Shown: positions 2,651-57,539 of the stretch, in pieces
Layout of the letters: each line of letters starts with the position of its first letter
How positions within the stretch are numbered: position 1 is the first letter of the stretch
Source: Calditrichia bacterium
GTDB lineage: Bacteria > Calditrichota > Calditrichia > RBG-13-44-9 > J075
Assembly: GCA_028284905.1 (NCBI GenBank)
Contig: JANQQU010000048.1
Span: forward strand, 1-61,745
Direction: 5' to 3'
Length of the DNA stretch: 61,745 nt
Translations under genes and position numbers: made by a program
Notes under the pieces: generated by a model
Told to the model about the DNA's origin: nothing
The model's database searches: none
What the model saw: the letters and a program-made list of their open reading frames with translations, nothing else

Positions 2651-3445
2651 ATGAAGCGACGGCATTTATTTGAATTTGGCGACCAAATCTGGTATCCGCA
2701 ATTTTTGAAAGATATGTTGACCGATTATCTCAACTTTGTGATAAAGCGCTTCAAGCTGCATCAGCCGGTAATTCCGCTTTTAGCGGATCTGCTGAAAGAA
2801 AGCAAAGAAAGCAGGATTATCGACCTCTGCTCTGGTGCCGGAGGGGGAATGGTTGACATAGACAAAATGCTTCGCGAGGCTTACGGGGAAGATTTTACCA
2901 TTACCCTGACGGATATATATCCGAACCTGCCTGCTTTCGAAAAGATTGCGGGGGAGACTGCTGGTAAAATAGACTACCTGGAAAGATCAGTACCTGCTCA
3001 CGACCTTCCGGAGGATCTACATGGCCTGCGTACCATCTTTAATGCTTTCCATCATTTTCCCCCATCTTATGCCAAGGATGTACTGGCAGATGCCGTTGAA
3101 AAAAATAGCCCGATTGCTATCTTTGAAATAATGGAACGAAAATTTGCCAACTTGCTGCCTCCGATTGTTTTTATTCCTATTTTCGTCCTGCTATTTACGC
3201 CTTTTATTCGTCCCTTTAAAATTAGTCGTTTGATTTTCACCTATCTCATCCCCATCGTACCCATCAGCATTACCTGGGATGGGATCGTCTCCGCCTTGCG
3301 TTCCTATAAACCGAAAGAGTTACTGGCAATTGCGGAAGAAGCAGGGGGAGAAAAATATCGTTGGAAAGCTGGTATGGTTTCCGGAACCGGACCAAATAAC
3401 ATTACGTATTTAACAGGTGTGCCACAATCTCAAAACCAGAATTAA
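2651..3445 (+). CDS. Class I SAM-dependent methyltransferase with hydrophobic insert
   Basis: A 264-residue protein. Motif I for S-adenosylmethionine binding is IIDLCSGAGGG (about residues 55-65), followed by an acidic motif in TLTDIYPN. After the Rossmann core it carries a strongly hydrophobic pair of segments (about residues 169-210, rich in Ile, Pro, Phe), which may anchor it to the membrane or form a lipid-substrate lid. The substrate is unknown. It lies 25 bp upstream of the barrel-SppA gene and is likely co-transcribed with it, hinting at an envelope function. Confidence 0.85.
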   Translation: MKRRHLFEFGDQIWYPQFLKDMLTDYLNFVIKRFKLHQPVIPLLADLLKESKESRIIDLCSGAGGGMVDIDKMLREAYGEDFTITLTDIYPNLPAFEKIAGETAGKIDYLERSVPAHDLPEDLHGLRTIFNAFHHFPPSYAKDVLADAVEKNSPIAIFEIMERKFANLLPPIVFIPIFVLLFTPFIRPFKISRLIFTYLIPIVPISITWDGIVSALRSYKPKELLAIAEEAGGEKYRWKAGMVSGTGPNNITYLTGVPQSQNQN

Positions 3446-3469
3446 CCGCATCGATTTGGAGCGTTTTCC

Positions 3470-5881
3470 ATGAAAAGAATTCTTTACTGTCTGTTTTTCC
3501 TCTTAAGTATTGGAGCTCTTAATGCTCAGCAATTTACCCCCCATCAATATCGCCATACGTTTCTGCAGAATGGCGCGGCATCTTACCAAAACGGACTGCT
3601 GGGATTTGCAAATCCGGCAGCATCGGCAATGTTGCAACGCTTTAACTGGCGCTATTATTGGACCTCGGATGAAACTGAAAATTTGGGCGTTCAGAACTGG
3701 GGGATTCTCACCGGCGCAGAAGGCGTGGGGTTTGGTGCTATTCGTACAAACTTCGGCAATCGTAAGGTAACCGATTACAACATCTCCTTCGCATCGGGAA
3801 ATCAAAGTGCGGCATTTGGCCTCGGCTATCGCTGGACGACCGGCGACGGGCGTTTCTTCGGGCGGGAAAATTTAATCTCTGCCGGATGGATATTACGACC
3901 CTCCCGCTATCTGTCTGCCGGATTGGTCGGAAATTTTTCCACCCGTAGCAGCGCAAAGGAAGGCGTGCTGGAATTGGGCGTTCGTCCACTGGGAACGCCT
4001 GTATTGAGTGTTTTCGGAGATTTCAGTTTACAGAAAGATCAGCAGCTGGCGGATGCTGCCTGGAGCGCCGGCGCTGCGCTGCAGGTTGTGAAAGGGATTC
4101 ACCTTACCGGGCGTTACTTCGACAATGAACGCTTCACCATGGGCTTTAGCATTAGCTGGGGTGGGGAGCGCTTTAGCGGACAATCCCATTTTGATAGTGA
4201 ACAGGATCGACAGTTTAACAGCTACTCTGTGGGCTATGGCGATTATACACCGAGTGTATTTGAAGATATATTCAGCAAGAAAAAACATTATGTCGCGATG
4301 GGCCTGAAAGGATTGATCAGCTATCAGAAATACAAATGGTTTGATAACTCCCAACGCTTTATGGATATTCTGCAAACGATTGAAAATGCCCGGCGGGATC
4401 CTGCCGTTGAGGTCGTTGCCCTGAACCTATCCGCAATGCGTATCTACCCGGAGCACGCCTGGGAAATTCGCGAAGCGTTGCGTGCAGTAAAAGCAGATGG
4501 CAAGAAGGTGGTCATCTTTGTGGATAATGCCGGCATGAACGGCTATCACCTCGCCAGTGTGGCCGACGTCCTGATGATGGACCCGCAAGGGAGCCTGCAG
4601 CTGCCCGGATATGTTTTATCCCGCACTTACCTGAAGGGCACCCTGGAAAAACTGGGACTCGGTTTTGACGAATGGCGTTTCTTTAAATATAAGTCTGCTG
4701 CGGAAATGCTTTCCCGGGATGAGATGTCCGCCGCCGACCGCGAGCAGCGCCAGGCATTAGTAGACGACAGTTATGCGCTTTTCCAAAAAGAAGTCGCCGC
4801 TTCCCGGAATATTTCCCGCGAGAAGCTGGCCGATATTATCGATGAAAAAGTTTACGTGATGCCGGATGATGCCCTGGCTGAAGGACTGGTAGACACGCTG
4901 TGCCGCTGGAGCGAGCTGGATGGTGTTATCAGCAAATTGACCGGCGCTAAGAAAATCCCGCTGCCCGGAAAATATTTGGCAGAGCGGGCAAATGCCGTTC
5001 AACAGTGGGGCGAACCGGCGCGTATCGCCGTAGTCTACGCCCTTGGTGAGTGTGCAATGGATAGTGGTATTCGTGCCCGTTGGCTGGAAAAAGTGTTTCT
5101 TGGGCTGGCAAAAGCCCACCAGGTAAAAGCAGTGGTCTTCCGGGTGGATTCCCCCGGCGGTGACGGCATGGCCTCTGATGTGGTTGCGGAAGCACTGAAA
5201 AAATGCGCCGCGAAGAAGCCGGTGATCATTAGCCAGGGGCAGGTCGCTGCTTCCGGCGGATACTGGATTTCCATGTATGGCGATTCGATTGTTGCCGGCC
5301 CGAATACAATCACCGGTTCCATTGGCGTCATCGGTGGCTGGGTCTATGACAAGGGTATCGGGGATAAACTGGGGATGAGCTCTGACCTGGTAAAACAGGG
5401 AGCGCATGCCGACCTCGGTGTTGGGGTGCGTTTACCCTTGCTGAATTTGCAGGTGCCGGCCCGTAACCTTACCGGAGAGGAACGGGAGCGAGTGAAGGAT
5501 CTTTTCCTGAAGATGTATGACGGCTTTGTCGGGAAAGTCGCTGCTGGCCGGGAAATGCCGGTCGATTCGATTCGGGCGATTGCGGAAGGACAGGTCTTTT
5601 CCGGGACGGACGGTCTGGCAAATGGTTTGGTGGATAAAATCGGTGGCATGCAAACGGCGATAGAAATGGCCCGGAAGATGGCCGGACTAGGTGATAATTA
5701 TCGTATTGTAGAAATCCCCAAATATCGCGGCACTTTTAACAGTAATTTTCTTAGCCCATTTGCGATTGGGAAGAGTGTAGAAGAAGATCCGGTAATTCGC
5801 TTTATCAAAACCATGAGTGAGCGGCCTGGTTATCCGAGACCAATGCTTTTGCCGGGTGATTATCCCATCCAGCCGGAATAA
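3470..5881 (+). CDS. sppA: Signal peptide peptidase A (S49) fused to an N-terminal outer-membrane-barrel-like domain
   Basis: An 803-residue protein. Residues 1-19 form a signal peptide ending in LNA. Residues 20-265 are strand-rich with alternating aromatic and small residues and repeated GxGY/W patterns, resembling a PorV/OmpX-like beta-barrel. Residues 275-800 match long-form (67K-type) SppA with two tandem S49 domains. The catalytic dyad is visible: Lys408 in FKYKSA (E. coli K209) and Ser595 in AASGGYWIS (E. coli S409). Classical SppA is anchored in the inner membrane by one N-terminal helix, so here the protease may instead be held at the outer membrane. It follows a methyltransferase gene and is convergent with glycerate kinase. 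Confidence 0.9.
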   Translation: MKRILYCLFFLLSIGALNAQQFTPHQYRHTFLQNGAASYQNGLLGFANPAASAMLQRFNWRYYWTSDETENLGVQNWGILTGAEGVGFGAIRTNFGNRKVTDYNISFASGNQSAAFGLGYRWTTGDGRFFGRENLISAGWILRPSRYLSAGLVGNFSTRSSAKEGVLELGVRPLGTPVLSVFGDFSLQKDQQLADAAWSAGAALQVVKGIHLTGRYFDNERFTMGFSISWGGERFSGQSHFDSEQDRQFNSYSVGYGDYTPSVFEDIFSKKKHYVAMGLKGLISYQKYKWFDNSQRFMDILQTIENARRDPAVEVVALNLSAMRIYPEHAWEIREALRAVKADGKKVVIFVDNAGMNGYHLASVADVLMMDPQGSLQLPGYVLSRTYLKGTLEKLGLGFDEWRFFKYKSAAEMLSRDEMSAADREQRQALVDDSYALFQKEVAASRNISREKLADIIDEKVYVMPDDALAEGLVDTLCRWSELDGVISKLTGAKKIPLPGKYLAERANAVQQWGEPARIAVVYALGECAMDSGIRARWLEKVFLGLAKAHQVKAVVFRVDSPGGDGMASDVVAEALKKCAAKKPVIISQGQVAASGGYWISMYGDSIVAGPNTITGSIGVIGGWVYDKGIGDKLGMSSDLVKQGAHADLGVGVRLPLLNLQVPARNLTGEERERVKDLFLKMYDGFVGKVAAGREMPVDSIRAIAEGQVFSGTDGLANGLVDKIGGMQTAIEMARKMAGLGDNYRIVEIPKYRGTFNSNFLSPFAIGKSVEEDPVIRFIKTMSERPGYPRPMLLPGDYPIQPE

Positions 5882-34109: not shown

Positions 34110-34121
34110 GGGGGGCGCTCA

Positions 34122-34242
34122 TTGCATTCGCTGATGGTTGCACTCACTGCGTTCGCTGATGGCTGCACTCACTGCGTTCGTTGATGGTTCCGCTCCCGCT
34201 GGTCGCTAATGGTTCCGCTCACTCTGTTCGCTGATGGTTTTT
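34122..34242. repeat. 25-bp tandem repeats (about 4.8 copies)
   Basis: Five degenerate copies of a 25-bp unit start at 34122, 34147, 34172, 34197 and 34222. The core is CGCTGATGG followed by T-rich/CGCTCACTG. Copies 1-2 and 3-5 form two subtypes (TGCACTCA versus CCGCTC). No spacer-like unique sequence is present, so this is not a CRISPR array. Confidence 0.85.
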
Positions 34243-47134: not shown

Positions 47135-50100
47135 ATGACCCTGCTTAAAAAGACTTCAAAAATATTCGGCATTATGGTTCTTTTTTGGGTAGCGCACGGC
47201 AATTGCCTGCTGGCCCAGCGGGGGTCCGCTGTAAAGATGTCTCAATCGGAAATCCGCTTCGAACAACTCTCGGTGGAACAGGGGCTGTCCAGCAACTTTA
47301 TCAACTGTATGCTGCAAGACCGGCTGGGATTTATCTGGATTGGCACTGAAAACGGGTTGAATCGCTTTGACGGCTATGAAGCGATCATTTATCGCTATGA
47401 GCCGGAAGCAGCAGAAGGACTGAGCGCCATTGACATTTCATCCCTTTATGAAGATGCGCACGGCAACCTCTGGATTGGCACTTCCCATGGACTGAATAAA
47501 TTCGATCCCATCAGCGAATCTTTCGAACGGTTTCTGCATGACCCGCAAGACTCGCTCAGCCTGATCGATAATAAGATTACTGCCATTTCTGCCGATCCCG
47601 GCAGCAGCGGCCAGGGCATTTGGATCGGCACGCCAAGCGGCTTGTGCCGCATGGAAATCGACCGGCAGGGACAGCGGATATTCCAGCACTTCGCTCATGA
47701 TCTGAAAAATAACCACAGCCCACGGCATCAGTATATTTCAGCACTTTTCAAAGATAGTGGTGGATCAGTTTGGGTCGGGACTGGCGATTTATCTGTTAAA
47801 GGAGGCGGGCTTTATAGAATTACTCCGATAGCACAAAAAGAGCGATCTTTCGCAAATGAAGGTTCTTCCGCTTCACCGAATGAATTGTTTAAAGTTGCAA
47901 GACATTATACCTTCCTCCAGACATATATTCCGGGAATAAAAAGGCCATTGGGCTTTGCAAACTGGATTCGATCTATTTATGAAAGCTCCTCGAATTTATT
48001 ATGGATCGTTGCCGGCCCGAGGTTGAGTAAGTATAACCGCAATACAGATAATTTTACCCATTATAATTATAATAATCTTCACCCGGATAGCCTTTCCAGT
48101 TTTACTTTGAATTCGGTGGTTAGTGATCTTTCCGGGAATATATGGCTGGGGACGGACTTGGATGGATTGATCAAATTCGATACAGCGGCAGAAATATTCA
48201 GCACTTATCGACGTCAACCGGAAAACCCGGCAAGTTTAAGTGAAAATTTGATCCTTTCACTTTTTCGCGACTACTCCGGGACAGTTTGGTGCGGTACCAA
48301 CGGTGGTGGCATCAGCAAGTTTGATCCTGAAAGCAACTACTTTAAACATATCAAGAACGAACTTCTATTCCCCGAAGATGCGGGGATGATCAGAATTTAC
48401 TCAATTTCAGAAAGCAACGGTGATACTTTGTGGTTAGGCACTGATCTGGGGCCGGTTAGATTTCTGCCCCCCGATCAACGAATCAAGGTTGAGGGTCGCC
48501 TCCCGTTGAAGGGAGTGCCGACGTTATCGATTATCGAGGAAGCGGAATCAGTCTGGTTTGCTGGCATGGGTATGAGCGGTATTAATCGCCGCCAGAATAA
48601 AATTACAAAACTTGACGGGAAGATGAGCCATTTTGCTGCTCACAAATTACTGATAGATCGCAATGAAACGATGTGGGTTGGCACACGTAATGGCTTAAAC
48701 AAACTGAATCGGGAAAGTGCTACATTCACATATTACTTTCACGATCCGCACAATCCTAACAGCATCAGCCACAATGCAGTAACGACCCTTTATGAAGACC
48801 GTTCCGGCGTCTTGTGGATCGGTACCGGGCAAGGCCTGAACCGTTTCAACCGGGAAACAGAGTTGTTTACCCGCTATAACCACGATCCGCGCAATGTACA
48901 TTCACTGCGAAATGATTTAATAAGAACATTATATCAGGATCGTTCCGGCAGATTATGGGTGGGGACAAAAGGTGGACTATCACTCGTGAATGGCGAATAT
49001 GCCGCTAAAACCGTATCAGACTCGCAGGCGTATCAGCTAACCTTCCGCAATTTTACTGAAAAAGATGGCCTCCCCAATGAGACCGTCAATGGCATATTGG
49101 AAGATGAAGCCGGGAATCTCTGGCTTGGTACCGAAAAAGGGCTTTCCAGGTTCGATCCTGAGAGTGGTGAATTTCATAATTATGATCATACTGACGGTCT
49201 TGCCCTGAATCGTTTTCTCGTTGGTTCCTGCTACCGGAACGATGAAGGAGAAATGTTCTTTGGCGGCCGTGACGGAATGGTGATGTTTCATCCCGATAGC
49301 ATCAGAAGCAATCCGAATCCCCCGCCAATTGTGATTACCGCCTTGAAGCGTTTCAATCGACCCGTAGAATTGGATAGTGCTATATTCCTGACAAAGAACC
49401 TTGTTTTTCCCTATCATGAAAATCAGTTCTCGCTGGAATTTGCTGCGCTAAACTTTAATTATTCCGCCCGGAACCGGTATGCCTATATCTTAGAAGGATT
49501 TAATGAATCCTGGATCGACAACGGCGGCAAACGGGAGGCAGCCTTTACAAATCTGGATCCCGGGGAATATACCTTCCGGGTAAAAGGCAGCAATGATGAT
49601 GGCGTCTGGAATGAGAACGGCGCAACACTCCGGATTATCATTACACCGCCCTGGTATCGCACCTGGTGGGCATATATTTTTTACATACTGCTGGCCGGCG
49701 GCAGTTTCGCCGCCTTTATTCGTTTTCGCGAACGGACACTACGCCAGCGCACAGAAGAATTAGAGGCAATTGTGGCGGACCGTACAGCGGAACTGGCGGA
49801 AAAGAATATCGCTCTCCAGGAGTTGGATAATATGAAGTCCCGCTTCTTTGCGAACATTTCTCATGAGTTCCGCACACCGCTTACGTTGATCCTCGGCCCT
49901 GTGGAGCAAATGATTGAAATGGTCCGCGAAAGCAATTTTGAAGAAAAACTGAATATCGTGCAACGTAATGCCCGGCGGCTATTGGGCCTGATAAATGAGC
50001 TGCTCGACCTCGCCAAACTGGAATCCGGCAAAATGACCCTCAACGCCAAATCTGGCGATTTTATCCAATTTTTGAAAGGGCTGCTCTCTGCATTTGATTC

Positions 50101-51550
50101 ACTTGCGGAAATTCGCGGTATCAACTTTCAGTTCAGCATATCCGCAGAAAAAGAAAATCTACAATCCCTGCGGGCGATGTCTTTCGATTACGATAAAATG
50201 GAGAAGATCTTTGCTAACCTTCTGGCAAATGCCTTTAAGTTTACGCCGGATGGCGGCAGTATTAGTGTAGACCTGTCGAATTCGGAATTCGGAATTGGGA
50301 ATTCGGAATTAAAGGATAAATCTTCCACCCAATCCAGGATTACGGAGAAGTGTGTTGAGGTTTGTATTTCCGACACCGGTGCCGGCATACCTCCGGAAGA
50401 ATTGCCATACATTTTTGACCGATTTTACCAGGCCCGCGATGAATCCGCTGCATCTCAGGACCGCATTGGTACCGGCATTGGTATGGCGTTAGTAAAAGAA
50501 TTGGTGGCATTGCACCAGGGCAGCATTACCGTGGAAAGCGAGCCGGGCAAAGGCACAACGGTCATCATTCAATTGCCACCGGTAGTTGCGAAGCCCCCGG
50601 TCGGTGCGAAGCCCCAGGTAGGTGCGAAGCATTCCTTCTCAGAAACTGAAAGCAATAGCGAATTAATTGCCAGGAATGCTTCGCACCTACCTGGGTTCCG
50701 TGAACCTTCCGGAATTCCCGAAGCGGCAGGCCAAATTCCAAATTCCGAATTCCAAATTCCGAATTCCGAATTCGAAAAATCCCCAAAGGGACAGGCCGAA
50801 ATCATTCTGGTCGTCGAAGACAATCCTGACATGCGAGCCTACATTCGCGAAGAATTACTGAAAGAATACCAGTTGGCAGAAGCCGAAAATGGCCGGGAAG
50901 GCTTGGATAAGGCGATAGATCTTATCCCGGACCTGATTGTCAGCGATGTTATGATGCCAAAAATGAACGGCTATGAACTCTGTGAGAAGCTGAAAACCGA
51001 TGAACGCACCAGCCACATCCCGGTAATCCTCCTGACGGCAAAAGCCGGTGAAGAAAGCAAGATAGAAGGCCTGGAAACCGGTGCTGATGATTACCTTACC
51101 AAGCCCTTCAATTTCCGGGAATTGCGCATCCGGGTCAGCAACCTTATTGAGCAACGGCGCAAGTTAAGGGAACGATTCAGCGGTGAAATGCTCTTAAAAC
51201 CCGCTGATGTTGCCATAACCTCCTTAGACCAGCAATTTTTAGAAAAAGTAATGGGCGTGGTTGAAGCCCGCATGGCAGATGAAACATTTAATGTCGATGC
51301 TCTTGCCGAAGGGGTGGTTATGAGCCGCCGACAACTTCACCGGAAGCTACTGGCGCTGACCAATCAACCGCCGCGGCAATTTATTCTCTCTCTTCGGCTT
51401 CAACGGGCGGCAGAACTTCTCCTCAATAACGCCGGAACGGTCGCTGAAATTGCCTACCAAACCGGTTTTAATACACCGAATTATTTTACCAAAGTGTTCC
51501 GGAAACAATTCGGCTGCACACCGAAAGCATATTGCGAAAAGAAGTCTTAG
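47135..51550 (+). CDS. Hybrid two-component system protein (beta-propeller sensor, kinase, receiver, AraC)
   Basis: A 1,471-residue inner-membrane regulator. Signal peptide (1-28); a periplasmic double beta-propeller of Reg_prop repeats (about 40-730; recurring LWIGT-GLNRFD units); a Y_Y_Y Ig-like domain (about 755-830); TM (about 848-866); HisKA with His910 (ISHEFRTPL); HATPase_c (about 990-1145); receiver with phospho-acceptor Asp1271 (SDVMMPKMNG); AraC HTH (about 1360-1468). This is the Bacteroidota HTCS layout, typically sensing glycans or small ligands. Odd: residues about 1148-1222 between kinase and receiver are encoded by repeat DNA (see repeats), and a short heptamer-encoded insert lies within HATPase_c. 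No SusC/D-like target genes are nearby. Confidence 0.93.
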   Translation: MTLLKKTSKIFGIMVLFWVAHGNCLLAQRGSAVKMSQSEIRFEQLSVEQGLSSNFINCMLQDRLGFIWIGTENGLNRFDGYEAIIYRYEPEAAEGLSAIDISSLYEDAHGNLWIGTSHGLNKFDPISESFERFLHDPQDSLSLIDNKITAISADPGSSGQGIWIGTPSGLCRMEIDRQGQRIFQHFAHDLKNNHSPRHQYISALFKDSGGSVWVGTGDLSVKGGGLYRITPIAQKERSFANEGSSASPNELFKVARHYTFLQTYIPGIKRPLGFANWIRSIYESSSNLLWIVAGPRLSKYNRNTDNFTHYNYNNLHPDSLSSFTLNSVVSDLSGNIWLGTDLDGLIKFDTAAEIFSTYRRQPENPASLSENLILSLFRDYSGTVWCGTNGGGISKFDPESNYFKHIKNELLFPEDAGMIRIYSISESNGDTLWLGTDLGPVRFLPPDQRIKVEGRLPLKGVPTLSIIEEAESVWFAGMGMSGINRRQNKITKLDGKMSHFAAHKLLIDRNETMWVGTRNGLNKLNRESATFTYYFHDPHNPNSISHNAVTTLYEDRSGVLWIGTGQGLNRFNRETELFTRYNHDPRNVHSLRNDLIRTLYQDRSGRLWVGTKGGLSLVNGEYAAKTVSDSQAYQLTFRNFTEKDGLPNETVNGILEDEAGNLWLGTEKGLSRFDPESGEFHNYDHTDGLALNRFLVGSCYRNDEGEMFFGGRDGMVMFHPDSIRSNPNPPPIVITALKRFNRPVELDSAIFLTKNLVFPYHENQFSLEFAALNFNYSARNRYAYILEGFNESWIDNGGKREAAFTNLDPGEYTFRVKGSNDDGVWNENGATLRIIITPPWYRTWWAYIFYILLAGGSFAAFIRFRERTLRQRTEELEAIVADRTAELAEKNIALQELDNMKSRFFANISHEFRTPLTLILGPVEQMIEMVRESNFEEKLNIVQRNARRLLGLINELLDLAKLESGKMTLNAKSGDFIQFLKGLLSAFDSLAEIRGINFQFSISAEKENLQSLRAMSFDYDKMEKIFANLLANAFKFTPDGGSISVDLSNSEFGIGNSELKDKSSTQSRITEKCVEVCISDTGAGIPPEELPYIFDRFYQARDESAASQDRIGTGIGMALVKELVALHQGSITVESEPGKGTTVIIQLPPVVAKPPVGAKPQVGAKHSFSETESNSELIARNASHLPGFREPSGIPEAAGQIPNSEFQIPNSEFEKSPKGQAEIILVVEDNPDMRAYIREELLKEYQLAEAENGREGLDKAIDLIPDLIVSDVMMPKMNGYELCEKLKTDERTSHIPVILLTAKAGEESKIEGLETGADDYLTKPFNFRELRIRVSNLIEQRRKLRERFSGEMLLKPADVAITSLDQQFLEKVMGVVEARMADETFNVDALAEGVVMSRRQLHRKLLALTNQPPRQFILSLRLQRAAELLLNNAGTVAEIAYQTGFNTPNYFTKVFRKQFGCTPKAYCEKKS
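50278..50312. repeat. Heptanucleotide tandem repeat inside the hybrid regulator gene
   Basis: Five GAATTCG-type heptamers (GAATTCG, GAATTCG, GAATTGG, GAATTCG, GAATTAA) lie within the HATPase_c coding region, giving NSEFGIGNSE. The insertion is in frame and falls in a loop between ATPase-domain strands. Confidence 0.85.
50615..50693. repeat. 21-bp perfect inverted repeat in coding sequence
   Basis: Arms 50615-50635 and 50673-50693 are perfect reverse complements (core AGGTAGGTGCGAAGCATT), with a 37-bp spacer. They are preceded by two shorter GGTGCGAAGCCCC-like direct copies from about 50585. The segment is read through in frame as part of the kinase-receiver linker. Confidence 0.9.
50732..50773. 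repeat. Six tandem heptamers encoding an IPNSEF repeat
   Basis: Six 7-bp units (CAAATTC or CGAATTC) at 50732, 50739, 50746, 50753, 50760 and 50767. They are the reverse complement of the heptamer at 50278-50312. Because 3 x 7 = 21, they translate as a 7-residue repeat (QIPNSEF). Confidence 0.92.
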
Positions 51551-51790: not shown

Positions 51791-51898
51791 GTCATTGCGA
51801 GGAGTGAAGCGACGAAGCAATCTCAAACGTGCATGCGACAAAGAGATCGCTTCGGCAAAAAGCGCCTCGCCCCGAAGGGACTCCTTGGGAGCGATGAC
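51791..51898. repeat. GTCATTGCGAGG palindromic element, copy with extra insertion
   Basis: Left arm GTCATTGCGAGGAGTGAAGC at 51791 and the AAGCAATCTC that follows pair with GAGATCGCTTCGGC...GCGATGAC (51843-51898). The right arm carries an extra about 20 bp (CCCGAAGGGACTCCTTGGGA) forming its own small hairpin. Confidence 0.85.
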
Positions 51899-51962
51899 GG
51901 ACAAGACAACTTTCAGCATTGCATGTTTAGCATTACCACTTTTTCCGGGTACTTAAAAAACT

Positions 51963-53144: not shown

Positions 53145-56100
53145 ATGCAAAATAGAATCTTTATTCTCAGCCTAATTTTTATCTTCAGCGCCGGTCTTTT
53201 TGCCGGAGATGCGGGAGATCGGAAAAAATCTAATGGGAAATCTGCCGCAACAGGAAAAACGAATACATCCGGGGAGCTAAATATCGAGGGGGCTGCTGCC
53301 GGAGGGATTAGTTTCGTAAACGCCAATGGCGATACGCTGATGCAGGTACGGGAAGACGGCCAGGTCATCATCGGTGCAGCGGTGGCGAACGGTAATGCGG
53401 TTCTCGATGTAGATGCGCTCAATAATGATAAAGGCGTTATGCTGCCGCGGCTGACGAGAGCTGAGCGCTTTGCGATGAGCCTTACCCCGGCGGATGAAGG
53501 CCTGCTGGTATACGATGAAACCAATAGCCGTTTCTGGTATTGGCAGGGCAGCCAGTGGGAGGTCGTCGGTAATAATGTTGGCGACAATCTCGGCGACCAT
53601 ACTGTCCGGCAAACACTAAATCTTAATGATTACTATCTCTCCGGCGATGGTGATAGCGAAGGTCTTTATATTGATGACGATGGCAACGTGGGCATCGGCA
53701 CGACAGTGCCGTCGGAAAGATTCCATGTGAACAATGGCGATGTTTTGATCAGCAGAACAGGGTCGAACTCAACCGGCACATCCTTAACTATCGAAGGTCG
53801 AATGAGAATAAAAAATGACCCCATAGTTTCGCTCGATTTTAAGAATAGCGACGCTGATGATTCCGATGTGACTTATACCGCCGCTGCGATCAGATCATTC
53901 AATAATGGCGGCTCCGACGATGGTGACCTGCGCTTATTTACCGCTGCGGATTCGATCCTGGCTGAGCGCATGAGAATTACCGATGAGGGCAACGTCGGTA
54001 TCGGCACGAAAACGCCAGGGAGCGAATTGGAGGTTAACGGAACAATTACTGCCACATCTTTCGTGGGAGATGGATCCGGATTAACCGGCATCGCCGGCGA
54101 TAATCTCGGCACTCACACCGCCACCCAGGCGCTTGACCTCGCCAATAATAATGTCGCCAATGGCGATACGATCACAGCCAATGTTTTCCTTGGAGACGGC
54201 TCCGGCTTAACCGGCATTGCCGGTGACAACCTTGGCAGCCACACCGCCATCCAAACGCTGGATCTAGCCGATAATAATATTACCAATGGTGATACGGTTA
54301 CAGCCAATGTTTTCGTAGGTGACGGTTCCGGTTTAACCAACCTGCCGGCCGGCAACGTTTGGCAGCTCACAGGCAATACCGGCACCGACAGCACCGTTAA
54401 CTTTATAGGCACTACGGATGATCAGCCGTTGTTTTTTAAAGCGAATAACCAGACTATTCTACGGTTGTATGATCATGCCTTAGCACCCAATATTATTGCC
54501 GGGTTTTCCGGTAATCACATTAGTGCAGGGAGCAAAGGCGTTACTATTTCTGGTGGAGGAAATAATGCCAACCCAAACTCAGTAAGCAGTGACTACGGTA
54601 CGATCGGTGGCGGTTTCAGAAATACAGTTACGCGTGACGGTGCGGTAATCGGCGGAGGTAGAATAAATACAGCCGGTGGTTTCTACGCGACGATAAGCGG
54701 TGGCAGTAATAACACTGCCGAGGATGATTATGCAGCCGTGGGCGGCGGCCTGCATAATATGGCCAGCGGCGTTACAGCGACTGTATCAGGGGGAAACAAA
54801 AACACAGCCAGTGGGTCTCGCTCGACGGTCGGTGGCGGTCGTTACAACATTGCCAGTGGAACAAGCGCAACCGTTGCCGGCGGTGGCGGCTATTTCTCAG
54901 GTAGTTTGGGGAACACCGCCAGCGGGGATTGGTCAACGATAGGTGGTGGTCGTGAAAACACTGCCAAAGGCTCTTCAGCGACAGTGCCCGGTGGGCGCCA
55001 GAATAATGCCGCTGGCAATGGCAGCTTTGCAGCCGGCCAGCGTGCCAAAATTGCGGATGCTCACAATGGTACTTTTCTTTACTCCGATCAGAGCAATTTC
55101 GATTTCAATTCTGCTGCATCCAATGAATTTGCCATCCGTGCGACGGGCGGTATGCGCTTTGTAACCGCTATTGACGCTTCCGGAAACCCGGTGCAAACGA
55201 TTCACATTGATAGTACTGGCACCGTAAGCGCCAGCGCTTTTGTTGGTGATGGCTCCGGCTTGACCGGCATCGCCGGCGACGATCTCGGTAGCCACACTGC
55301 CACCCAAATCCTTGATCTGGCCAATAACAACATAACCAATGGTGATACGGTCACTGCCAACGCCTTCGTCGGTGATGGTTCCGGTTTAACCAACCTGCCG
55401 TTCGGCAATGTTTGGCAGCTCACAGGCAATACCGGCACCGACAGCACCGTTAACTTTATTGGCACTACCGATGACCAACCGTTGTTTTTTAAAGCGAATA
55501 ACCAGACTATTCTGCGTCTGTATGATGGCCTCGAATCACCGAATATCATTGCCGGGTTTTCCGGCAATCGTTTCGCCGAAGGTGTTAGCGGGGCTACGAT
55601 TTCCGGTGGTGGAAATAATCTTGCCCCAAACTCAGTAATTGGTGATTACGGTACGATCGGTGGCGGCCTGGGAAATACCGCCAGCGAACCTCATGCGACG
55701 GTGAGTGGGGGCGAAGAAAATACGGCCGCCTTTTATGCAACGGTGAGTGGCGGCGAGGAAAATACGGCCAGCGGCGGTTATGCGACGGTGAGTGGCGGTC
55801 AGGAAAATACAGCCAGCCTCCTTTATGCGACGGTGAGTGGCGGCGAGAGAAATACGGCTAGCAGCCTTTATGCGACGGTCGGTGGCGGCGAGGCAAATAT
55901 GGCCAGCGCCTATTATACGACGGTGAGTGGCGGCGAGGAAAATACGGCCAGCGGGGAGAGCGCTACGGTGCCGGGCGGTTACCAAAATACCGCGGCTGGC
56001 CAGGGCAGTTTTGCCGCCGGCCAGCACGCCAAGATTGCGGATACTCACGATGGCACTTTCCTTTTCTCCGACCATAGTGGTTTCGATTTCAACTCTGCCG

Positions 56101-57539
56101 CGGCCAATGAATTTGCCGTTCGTGCGACCGGCGGCGTGCGCTTTGTAACCGGGATTGACGGCGTTGGAAATTCGACGCAGACAGTAGGCATAAATAGTAA
56201 CGGCAATGTCGGCATCGGCACGGCGACGCCAGGCCACCGGCTGCACGTTAAAGGAACCAGCATTGCATTGACAGAAGGCGCACAATCACTCAGTTTGAGA
56301 ACTTCTGAAGCCAATGGCTATGTGCAACTCGACGTCGGTGGTTCCGGTCATTCCGGTGATAAGATTTATATCGGAGATTTGACCAACAACACCAACGAAG
56401 TCATCATGATGGGTGATGTCGGCATCGGTATGACAAACCCGGCTAATAAACTTTCAGTTTCCGGTTCAGCAGATTTCTCTGGCAAGGTCGGCATCGGCAC
56501 ATCCGCCCCGGAGAAAAAATTGCATATCAAGAGCTCCGGTGCCAACGATGCGAAAATCATTATTGAGGGGGACGCAAATGACGATCCGACGATTGAGTTC
56601 CGGGATGACGCCGGTACTATTGGCTTCATTGGCTGGGACAATAGCGAAAATGCCATCAGAATAACTCCTGACCCCTACCACTACAATTCTCGGGGTATAA
56701 GCATTAATCCTGAAGGCAATGTCGGCATCGGTACCACGGACCCGATAAGGGCGAAAGTAGAAATTCAGGGACATACCGGTGTTTTGCCGCTTAGCTACGG
56801 CTGGCTAAATAACACCGGTAATACCGGAACGGCTTCCAATGGTAACGGCAGATATTCGCTGTATGCCAGTGACCGTATTGCCGCGGTCGAATTCAATGCC
56901 TTCTCGGACGAGCGAATCAAAAATATTCGCGGTCGCTCAGACAGTGAGCAAGACCTGAACACGCTGCTGGCCGTAGAGATCACCGACTACACCATGATCG
57001 ACACCGTTGCCAAGGGCAGCCAATTCCATAAAAAAGTAATTGCCCAGCAAGTGAAGGACGTTTTCCCGCAGGCAGTTTCTACCATGACTGACGTAGTGCC
57101 GGATATCTACCAACTGAGCGAGATCGCAGACGGCTGGGTGCAGCTCGCTACCGATTTACAGGTTGGGGAAAAAGTGAAGCTGATCAGAAAAGATGGCAGC
57201 GATATCTATGCAGTGCAGGCAGTGCGGGACGGCGCCTTTCGGGTCGATCTGGCGGAAAACGGCGAAGTCTTCGTTTACGGCCGGGAAGTGGATGATTTCC
57301 ACACCGTTGATTATGAGGCGATTGCCATGCTCAATGTTTCGGCGACGCAAGAATTGTTTCAGCGGATGCAGCAGCAGCAGGCAGCGATGAATGTGCAGCA
57401 AAAAGAGATCGCCGCGCTGAAGGAAAAAGTTGCCAAAGTGGATATGCTGGAAAACCAACTGGCGGCAATTATGCAGCAACTGGCATCCTCCAACGCGGTT
57501 AGGAGTGCTATGCTAACAGGTAGCAATGAAGCTCAATAA
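53145..57539 (+). CDS. Giant secreted tail-spike/adhesin-like protein with C-terminal S74 chaperone domain (copy 1)
   Basis: A 1,464-residue exported protein. Signal peptide 1-20 (GLFAGD). An N-terminal LPRLT...GLLVYD..WYWQGSQWEVV motif is typical of Bacteroidota surface fibres. The body has VGIGT units, repeated DGSGLTGIAGDNLGSHTATQ units and two YadA-head-like blocks of (A/S)TVSGGxxNTASG repeats, expected to form a trimeric beta-roll. The C-terminal peptidase S74/intramolecular chaperone domain has Ser1254 in FSDERIKNIRG, the predicted self-cleavage point, then KVIAQQVKDVFPQAV and a final coiled coil. Auto-release of about 211 residues is predicted. No phage structural genes are nearby. Tandem paralogue follows. 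Confidence 0.88.
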   Translation: MQNRIFILSLIFIFSAGLFAGDAGDRKKSNGKSAATGKTNTSGELNIEGAAAGGISFVNANGDTLMQVREDGQVIIGAAVANGNAVLDVDALNNDKGVMLPRLTRAERFAMSLTPADEGLLVYDETNSRFWYWQGSQWEVVGNNVGDNLGDHTVRQTLNLNDYYLSGDGDSEGLYIDDDGNVGIGTTVPSERFHVNNGDVLISRTGSNSTGTSLTIEGRMRIKNDPIVSLDFKNSDADDSDVTYTAAAIRSFNNGGSDDGDLRLFTAADSILAERMRITDEGNVGIGTKTPGSELEVNGTITATSFVGDGSGLTGIAGDNLGTHTATQALDLANNNVANGDTITANVFLGDGSGLTGIAGDNLGSHTAIQTLDLADNNITNGDTVTANVFVGDGSGLTNLPAGNVWQLTGNTGTDSTVNFIGTTDDQPLFFKANNQTILRLYDHALAPNIIAGFSGNHISAGSKGVTISGGGNNANPNSVSSDYGTIGGGFRNTVTRDGAVIGGGRINTAGGFYATISGGSNNTAEDDYAAVGGGLHNMASGVTATVSGGNKNTASGSRSTVGGGRYNIASGTSATVAGGGGYFSGSLGNTASGDWSTIGGGRENTAKGSSATVPGGRQNNAAGNGSFAAGQRAKIADAHNGTFLYSDQSNFDFNSAASNEFAIRATGGMRFVTAIDASGNPVQTIHIDSTGTVSASAFVGDGSGLTGIAGDDLGSHTATQILDLANNNITNGDTVTANAFVGDGSGLTNLPFGNVWQLTGNTGTDSTVNFIGTTDDQPLFFKANNQTILRLYDGLESPNIIAGFSGNRFAEGVSGATISGGGNNLAPNSVIGDYGTIGGGLGNTASEPHATVSGGEENTAAFYATVSGGEENTASGGYATVSGGQENTASLLYATVSGGERNTASSLYATVGGGEANMASAYYTTVSGGEENTASGESATVPGGYQNTAAGQGSFAAGQHAKIADTHDGTFLFSDHSGFDFNSAAANEFAVRATGGVRFVTGIDGVGNSTQTVGINSNGNVGIGTATPGHRLHVKGTSIALTEGAQSLSLRTSEANGYVQLDVGGSGHSGDKIYIGDLTNNTNEVIMMGDVGIGMTNPANKLSVSGSADFSGKVGIGTSAPEKKLHIKSSGANDAKIIIEGDANDDPTIEFRDDAGTIGFIGWDNSENAIRITPDPYHYNSRGISINPEGNVGIGTTDPIRAKVEIQGHTGVLPLSYGWLNNTGNTGTASNGNGRYSLYASDRIAAVEFNAFSDERIKNIRGRSDSEQDLNTLLAVEITDYTMIDTVAKGSQFHKKVIAQQVKDVFPQAVSTMTDVVPDIYQLSEIADGWVQLATDLQVGEKVKLIRKDGSDIYAVQAVRDGAFRVDLAENGEVFVYGREVDDFHTVDYEAIAMLNVSATQELFQRMQQQQAAMNVQQKEIAALKEKVAKVDMLENQLAAIMQQLASSNAVRSAMLTGSNEAQ
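54175..56160. repeat. Internal 1,053-bp duplication within copy 1
   Basis: The segment containing VWQLTGNTGTDSTVNFIGTT and the following head block occurs twice, offset by 1,053 bp (351 codons). For example, GGTTCCGGTTTAACCAACCT is at 54324 and 55377. Long stretches are nearly identical at DNA level, implying recent in-frame duplication. Confidence 0.85.
55695..56006. repeat. 42-45-bp minisatellite in the adhesin head
   Basis: Seven units starting with GCGACGGTG-like sequence at 55695, 55737, 55782, 55827, 55872, 55917 and 55962 (spacing 42, then 45 bp). They encode ATVSGGEENTASG-type repeats. Near identity suggests copy-number variability by slippage or recombination. Confidence 0.92.

Follow-up and report, generated by a model that had tools for sequence, protein, structure and literature searches.

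In-frame dispersed repeats at two sites of the HTCS hybrid regulator family in a Calditrichia bacterium

The gene for a hybrid two-component regulator (HTCS) in a Calditrichia bacterium contains, translated and in frame, repeats of two unrelated families that are dispersed through the same genome, a GTAG-type palindrome and GGAATTC heptamers. Heptamer repeats recur in paralogues of this gene at the same two sites: the stretch between the N box and G1 box of HATPase_c (the loop) and the linker between HATPase_c and the receiver. In these two segments, permissive and predicted to be disordered, hairpin repeats have probably been tolerated repeatedly, staying in frame as passive spacers.

The window is the whole 61,745-nucleotide stretch of DNA analysed here, contig C45 of an 8.55-Mb genome (G000; 93 contigs, completeness 100). 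Its regulator belongs with the HTCS hybrid two-component systems by Pfam domains that run in one chain from a periplasmic propeller to an AraC HTH (Reg_prop propeller repeats, Y_Y_Y, HisKA, HATPase_c, receiver and HTH_18/AraC), and a PDB fold search with the protein confirmed the histidine kinase core and no more. All repeats in the gene are present and in frame within a single ORF, as the earlier note had held. The features are as follows:

47135..51550, + strand: HTCS gene, 1471 aa (Pfam scan, every domain above curated cut-off)
50278..50310, + strand: GGAATTC-type heptamer array, 4.7 copies, 92% matches (TRF; paralogue alignment; AlphaFold)
50575..50630, + strand: 18-bp tandem unit, 3.1 copies, GCCCCCGGTAGGTGCGAA (TRF; codon alignment with the C60 paralogue)
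50613..50695, + strand: GTAG-type REP-like palindrome (repeat search; dispersed arm; alignment of ten copies)
50717..50732, + strand: CCCGAAGCGGCAGGCC, a variant of the motif with the exact 15-mer CCCCGAAGGGGCAGG (read in the sequence; 15-mer search)
50731..50777, + strand: GGAATTC-type heptamer array, 6.7 copies, 87% matches, inverted orientation (TRF)
50781..50797, + strand: CCCCAAAGGGACAGGCC, second variant of the CCCGAAGCGGCAGGCC/CCCCGAAGGGGCAGG motif (read in the sequence)

The first heptamer array codes for NSEFGIGNSE and sits in the HATPase_c beta-hairpin; the second codes for IPNSEFQIPNSEFE and forms the 3' end of the kinase-receiver linker. Six tandem linker heptamers and a complementary run in HATPase_c had been noticed before, and both are confirmed, the two arrays being complementary over 35 nt at 97% (50276-50310 against the linker run). 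The palindrome has perfect arms of 24 bp (50613-50636 and 50672-50695) around a 35-nt spacer, rather than the 21 and 37 bp first given for it, and codes for VGAKHS...RNASHLP. Its left arm is the material of the 18-bp tandem, present in three copies in the window gene and two in C60. Directly 5' of the receiver domain, CCCCAAAGGGACAGGCC codes for SPKGQA, a peptide that is also found in the paralogue on C91 and in an NRPS. Other repeats lie elsewhere in the window: a 25-bp tandem repeat of 4.9 copies at 34118-34239 (CTCACTGCGTTCGCTGATGGTTCCA), a repeat of the TCATTGCGAGGAGTGAAGCGACGAAGCAATCTC type at 51796-51900, downstream of the HTCS gene, and a long protein at 53145-57539 with internal 126-bp and 45-bp repeats, followed from about 57.8 kb by an apparent second, related gene with the matching 126-bp repeat and a 9-bp repeat near its start.

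Is the linker made of intergenic-type repeats, as the earlier note proposed? For the palindrome, which occupies five intergenic places, and for the GGAATTC heptamers it is; the third component it named, GGTGCGAAGC, is not an independent repeat. The window gene has three exact copies of GGTGCGAAGC (two direct, one inverted) and the variant GTTGCGAAGC, and six of the 16 copies in the genome fall in this gene and the C60 paralogue (reversed control, 4). Outside C45 and C60 its frequency is near chance, and it was rejected as a dispersed repeat in its own right, as was GTGCGAAGCAT; GGTGCGAAGC is the left arm of the palindrome, reused in the 18-bp tandem. CCCCGAAGGGGCAGG was likewise rejected as a genome-wide repeat, its four matches all lying within three HTCS genes.

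For the palindrome arm GGKGCGAAGCATYCC the genome search gave 14 matches, and none for the control; they lie in the window gene, the C60 paralogue and the five intergenic places (on C13, C33 and C73), a dispersed and mainly intergenic distribution like that of GTAG REPs. It is dispersed as well in two genomes of sister genera (G005 and G006). Ten aligned copies have in common the core GG-G-GAAGCATTCC ... GGAATGCTTC, and a GTAG tag stands at one end (GGTAGGTGCGAAGC...GCTTCGCACCTACC; GTAGGGGCGAAGC in G005 and G006); other copies in the window's genome have GTGGGGGCG or GTCGGGGCG instead, which means that the tag varies. According to PMC3733652, GTAG REPs have a stem of 5-13 bp and a loop of 2-20 bp, and because stem and spacer here exceed those values we call the element REP-like, nearer to the TIR/MITE type. 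On contig C73 it flanks both sides of a small RAYT-like gene (L277:2402-2989), which of all families matches the REP-associated tyrosine transposases best (NF047646, 60.7 bits, below the cut-off of 80; Y1_Tnp 22.8, below the cut-off of 23). This neighbourhood suggests that a RAYT-type single-strand transposase probably mobilises the palindrome, and PMC3733652 describes both such mobilisation of GTAG palindromes and intragenic copies. For the window insert, no target-site duplication and no empty ortholog was found. In the sister genera the palindrome stands in frame in HTCS linkers, a Ser/Thr kinase and RAYT-like genes, and all nine coding copies examined have the same arm codon phase, giving VGAKHS...NASP. 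Two of the RAYT-like genes (L271 and L273) hold it in frame inside their own coding sequence, and one HTCS linker of G005 (L269 on C120, about 3332-3578) has, in tandem and in frame, about four 60-nt units that derive from it.

The GGAATTC doublet, a 14-mer (GGAATTCGGAATTC), occurs 60 times against none for the reversed control, and no doublets were found in six same-family genomes searched. About two-thirds of the strict clusters lie outside ORFs of at least 150 codons, and others are in short or 5'-extended ORFs. Nine strict arrays are inside the bodies of long ORFs, eight in HTCS genes (one a contig-end fragment) and one in an NRPS, an HTCS enrichment with a binomial P of about 1e-10 if 75 HTCS genes are assumed and an estimated coding fraction is used. 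The NRPS array (L103:3053-3080, contig C67) is in an AMP-binding domain, near the start of that domain, and is followed by the SPKGQ peptide of the HTCS linkers; elsewhere, GGAATTC hairpin arrays lie between apparent tRNA genes (L098, C54:82200-82850). A second heptamer, TAACTGA, reported before from Beggiatoaceae, Cyanobacteria and Bacteroidetes (PMC4679880), is likewise scattered through this genome (32 matches, control 0), and it fills the HATPase loop in six other paralogues, where it is translated as LSVISYQ/LITDN.

Both heptamers tend to come in opposed runs. In each of the six TAACTGA loops the reverse run precedes the forward one and the predicted fold is strong, and GGAATTC linkers that hold both orientations are mostly + then -. 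Intergenic GGAATTC clusters show the same order in 24 cases against 3 of the opposite (P 5e-5), a count to which compact arrays with GGAATTCC contribute trivially; restricted to clusters with a span of 60 nt or more, the ratio, read from the table, is about 15 to 3. Since coding and intergenic polarity agree, the heptamer element tends towards a hairpin with heptamer arms. The heptamer arrays may be mobile, but growth in place by slippage, or spread by gene conversion alone, could also account for them, the latter in keeping with the restriction of CCCCGAAGGGGCAGG to HTCS genes.

What ties these repeats together is where they sit. Scoring a paralogue as repeat-bearing at three or more GGAATTC-type or two or more TAACTGA-type matches, 15 of the 29 analysed carry such repeats, and every HTCS array is in the loop or in the linker. 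On a paralogue tree built without those two segments, repeat state changes at least eight times for the loop and at least five for the linker, which makes the pattern recurrent; many branches are weak, which leaves the count of independent events approximate, and the window, C60, C12 and C1 genes have a common ancestral repeat state. One paralogue is split across contigs in the HATPase loop, just past its heptamer array (L088, C32:61998-62090, and L099, the end of C57), with IS-like inverted termini GGGTAGTCACCCGTTTT / AAAACGGGTGACTACC and a duplicated GAAAATT; frame loss at its array was considered and rejected on account of these termini and the duplication at the contig ends.

Loops and linkers have medians of 22 and 38 aa in the named genomes searched and measure 23-60 and 46-78 aa in the window's genome. 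A full-length homologue found there (L222, from a candidate division KSB1 record; 40% identical and not a strict ortholog) has a loop of 33 aa and a linker of 50 aa, both free of the window repeats, so that the insert is missing from a homologue, has dispersed copies elsewhere in its genome and leaves its ORF intact, as RPE-like insertions do. AlphaFold, run on the fragment from 49769 with a 12-sequence alignment (mean pLDDT 72.6), predicts strands at 164-175 and 192-202 and pLDDT below 50 at 176-190 and 274-341, so that the loop insert lies where a beta-hairpin turns and the linker falls within a low-confidence stretch. Loop and linker are pre-existing permissive spacers that have since been lengthened.

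Together these observations suggest a route by which the repeats became protein. The HTCS family has expanded, and its linker and HATPase loop would be permissive segments exposed to solvent, into which short repeats resident in the genome were inserted again and again: a REP-like palindrome with a GTAG tag, probably moved by a RAYT-type single-strand transposase, and heptamer-armed inverted repeats (GGAATTC, and TAACTGA in other paralogues). The surviving insertions would be those that kept the frame, brought no stop codon and were confined to disordered loops. Gene conversion between paralogues may then have spread the inserts, as the third-position identity of 80-88% between the C45 and C60 genes over linker and receiver supports, and in-frame duplication altered their length. 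In the protein they would do no more than separate kinase from receiver, as passive hydrophilic spacers; we infer that they entered by transposition and are neutral.

For the loop, recurrence extends to sister lineages. Other families of the same order have different, often palindromic, inserts in their HTCS loops (PPSKGG...SPFEGG in G005 and G006; NPPVSP.PSG.RTGM in G008 and G014), and the sister-order loop motif GGACAGGTATGCNTAAGGGRGG had only three occurrences in the genomes searched, all in HTCS loops; the matches listed for the G005 loop palindrome were all at loci already under analysis. A bolder reading, which we regard as unlikely, makes the HATPase hairpin and the linker recurrent HTCS landing pads for hairpin repeats across the order, each lineage with its own repeat family and the hairpins kept for translation pacing or for in-frame variation of linker length that diversifies paralogous sensors.

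A role for the RNA itself would have the coding-sequence stem-loops slow the ribosome, or offer an RNase target, between kinase lobe and receiver, tuning the folding or level of the regulator. The mRNA hairpin that the earlier note suspected is indeed predicted and very stable: the linker RNA folds at -96.3 kcal/mol (z -7.2 against shuffles), and loop plus linker together reach z -7.7, the two heptamer arrays pairing with each other. The strong reverse-then-forward folds of the six TAACTGA loops and the + then - order of several GGAATTC linkers point the same way. However, the intergenic copies have that same architecture, in part trivially through the compact arrays, so the hairpins come from the element itself; moreover, 14 of the 29 paralogues lack GGAATTC and TAACTGA repeats by the count used, and the repeat family varies from gene to gene. 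Selection for an RNA hairpin is therefore improbable as the reason for the repeats.

Common repeats in loop and linker could also act as recombination hot spots at which HTCS genes swap kinase, receiver and sensor modules, a proposal to which we give equally little weight. The paralogue on C60 is the closest to the window gene, at 80% identity. Third-position identity of the pair is 80-88% over linker and receiver, declines across the AraC part to about 40%, and is about 40-65% over most of the rest, with a second tract of 90-100% at residues 150-300; the raised identity over linker and receiver indicates that the common linker reflects recent exchange, and the confinement of CCCCGAAGGGGCAGG to three HTCS genes fits with swapping. 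In this one pair, however, the tract over the linker does not end on repeats, and the tract at 150-300 has no repeat at all.

Phase variation, which the earlier note had suggested, would have slippage by 7 nt alternately break and restore the reading frame of the HATPase lobe, the receiver and the AraC domains. The arithmetic is sound: 7 is not a multiple of 3, and a change of one heptamer in silico truncates the protein to 1056-1063 aa at the loop and 1226-1246 aa at the linker. Perfect runs reach 4.9 units in C60 and 4.6 in C12 and C91, and there is a precedent in H. influenzae, where phase-variable heptanucleotide repeats lie upstream of hmw1a/hmw2a and number 13-38 in the quoted strains (PMC2651432). 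The idea is nevertheless very improbable, because the longest perfect run in the window gene is 2.7 units at either site, every array-bearing paralogue analysed is in frame through its arrays (a chance of about (1/3)^n for n independent genes), the length differences between the C45 and C60 genes are 18 nt (one tandem unit), 30 nt and 12 nt, in no case 7, and the only broken array-bearing paralogue seems to have been interrupted by an IS, not by a heptamer slip.

The reading of tolerated, passive spacers thus stands as the probable one, and it is best placed by comparison with known systems. The hmw1a/hmw2a loci also have a 7-bp unit, but the units here are few, imperfect and inside the ORF, and the C45 and C60 lengths never differ by 7. 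The TAACTGA repeats are the identical heptamer described in PMC4679880, where most intragenic copies fall in hypothetical proteins or at the ends of proteins; here the heptamer is dispersed too, and is translated inside the hairpin of a catalytic domain, running reverse then forward. The GTAG REP/RAYT REPtrons of PMC3733652 resemble the present palindrome in the GTAG tag, the flanked, putative RAYT-like gene and the presence of some intragenic copies, and differ in that stem (15-24 bp here) and spacer (35 nt) are longer here and copy number is low; the main text of that paper names no histidine kinase or two-component target. Rickettsia palindromic elements, which are also intergenic and lie in frame, apparently tolerated, in genes for conserved proteins (PMC2229807), are like these repeats, as are intragenic MITEs, in being palindromic, intergenic as well, and in-frame. 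The kind of event is ordinary, an intragenic REP/RPE-like insertion; its setting is unusual. Descriptions of intragenic repeats usually have them spread across genes that are unrelated, whereas here three unrelated types occupy the same two fixed positions in one large gene family. Such natural replicates could be used to ask how selfish or recombining DNA turns into protein sequence, what parts of a protein can accommodate it, and whether hybrid sensor kinases are affected by the length of their linkers or by coding hairpins.
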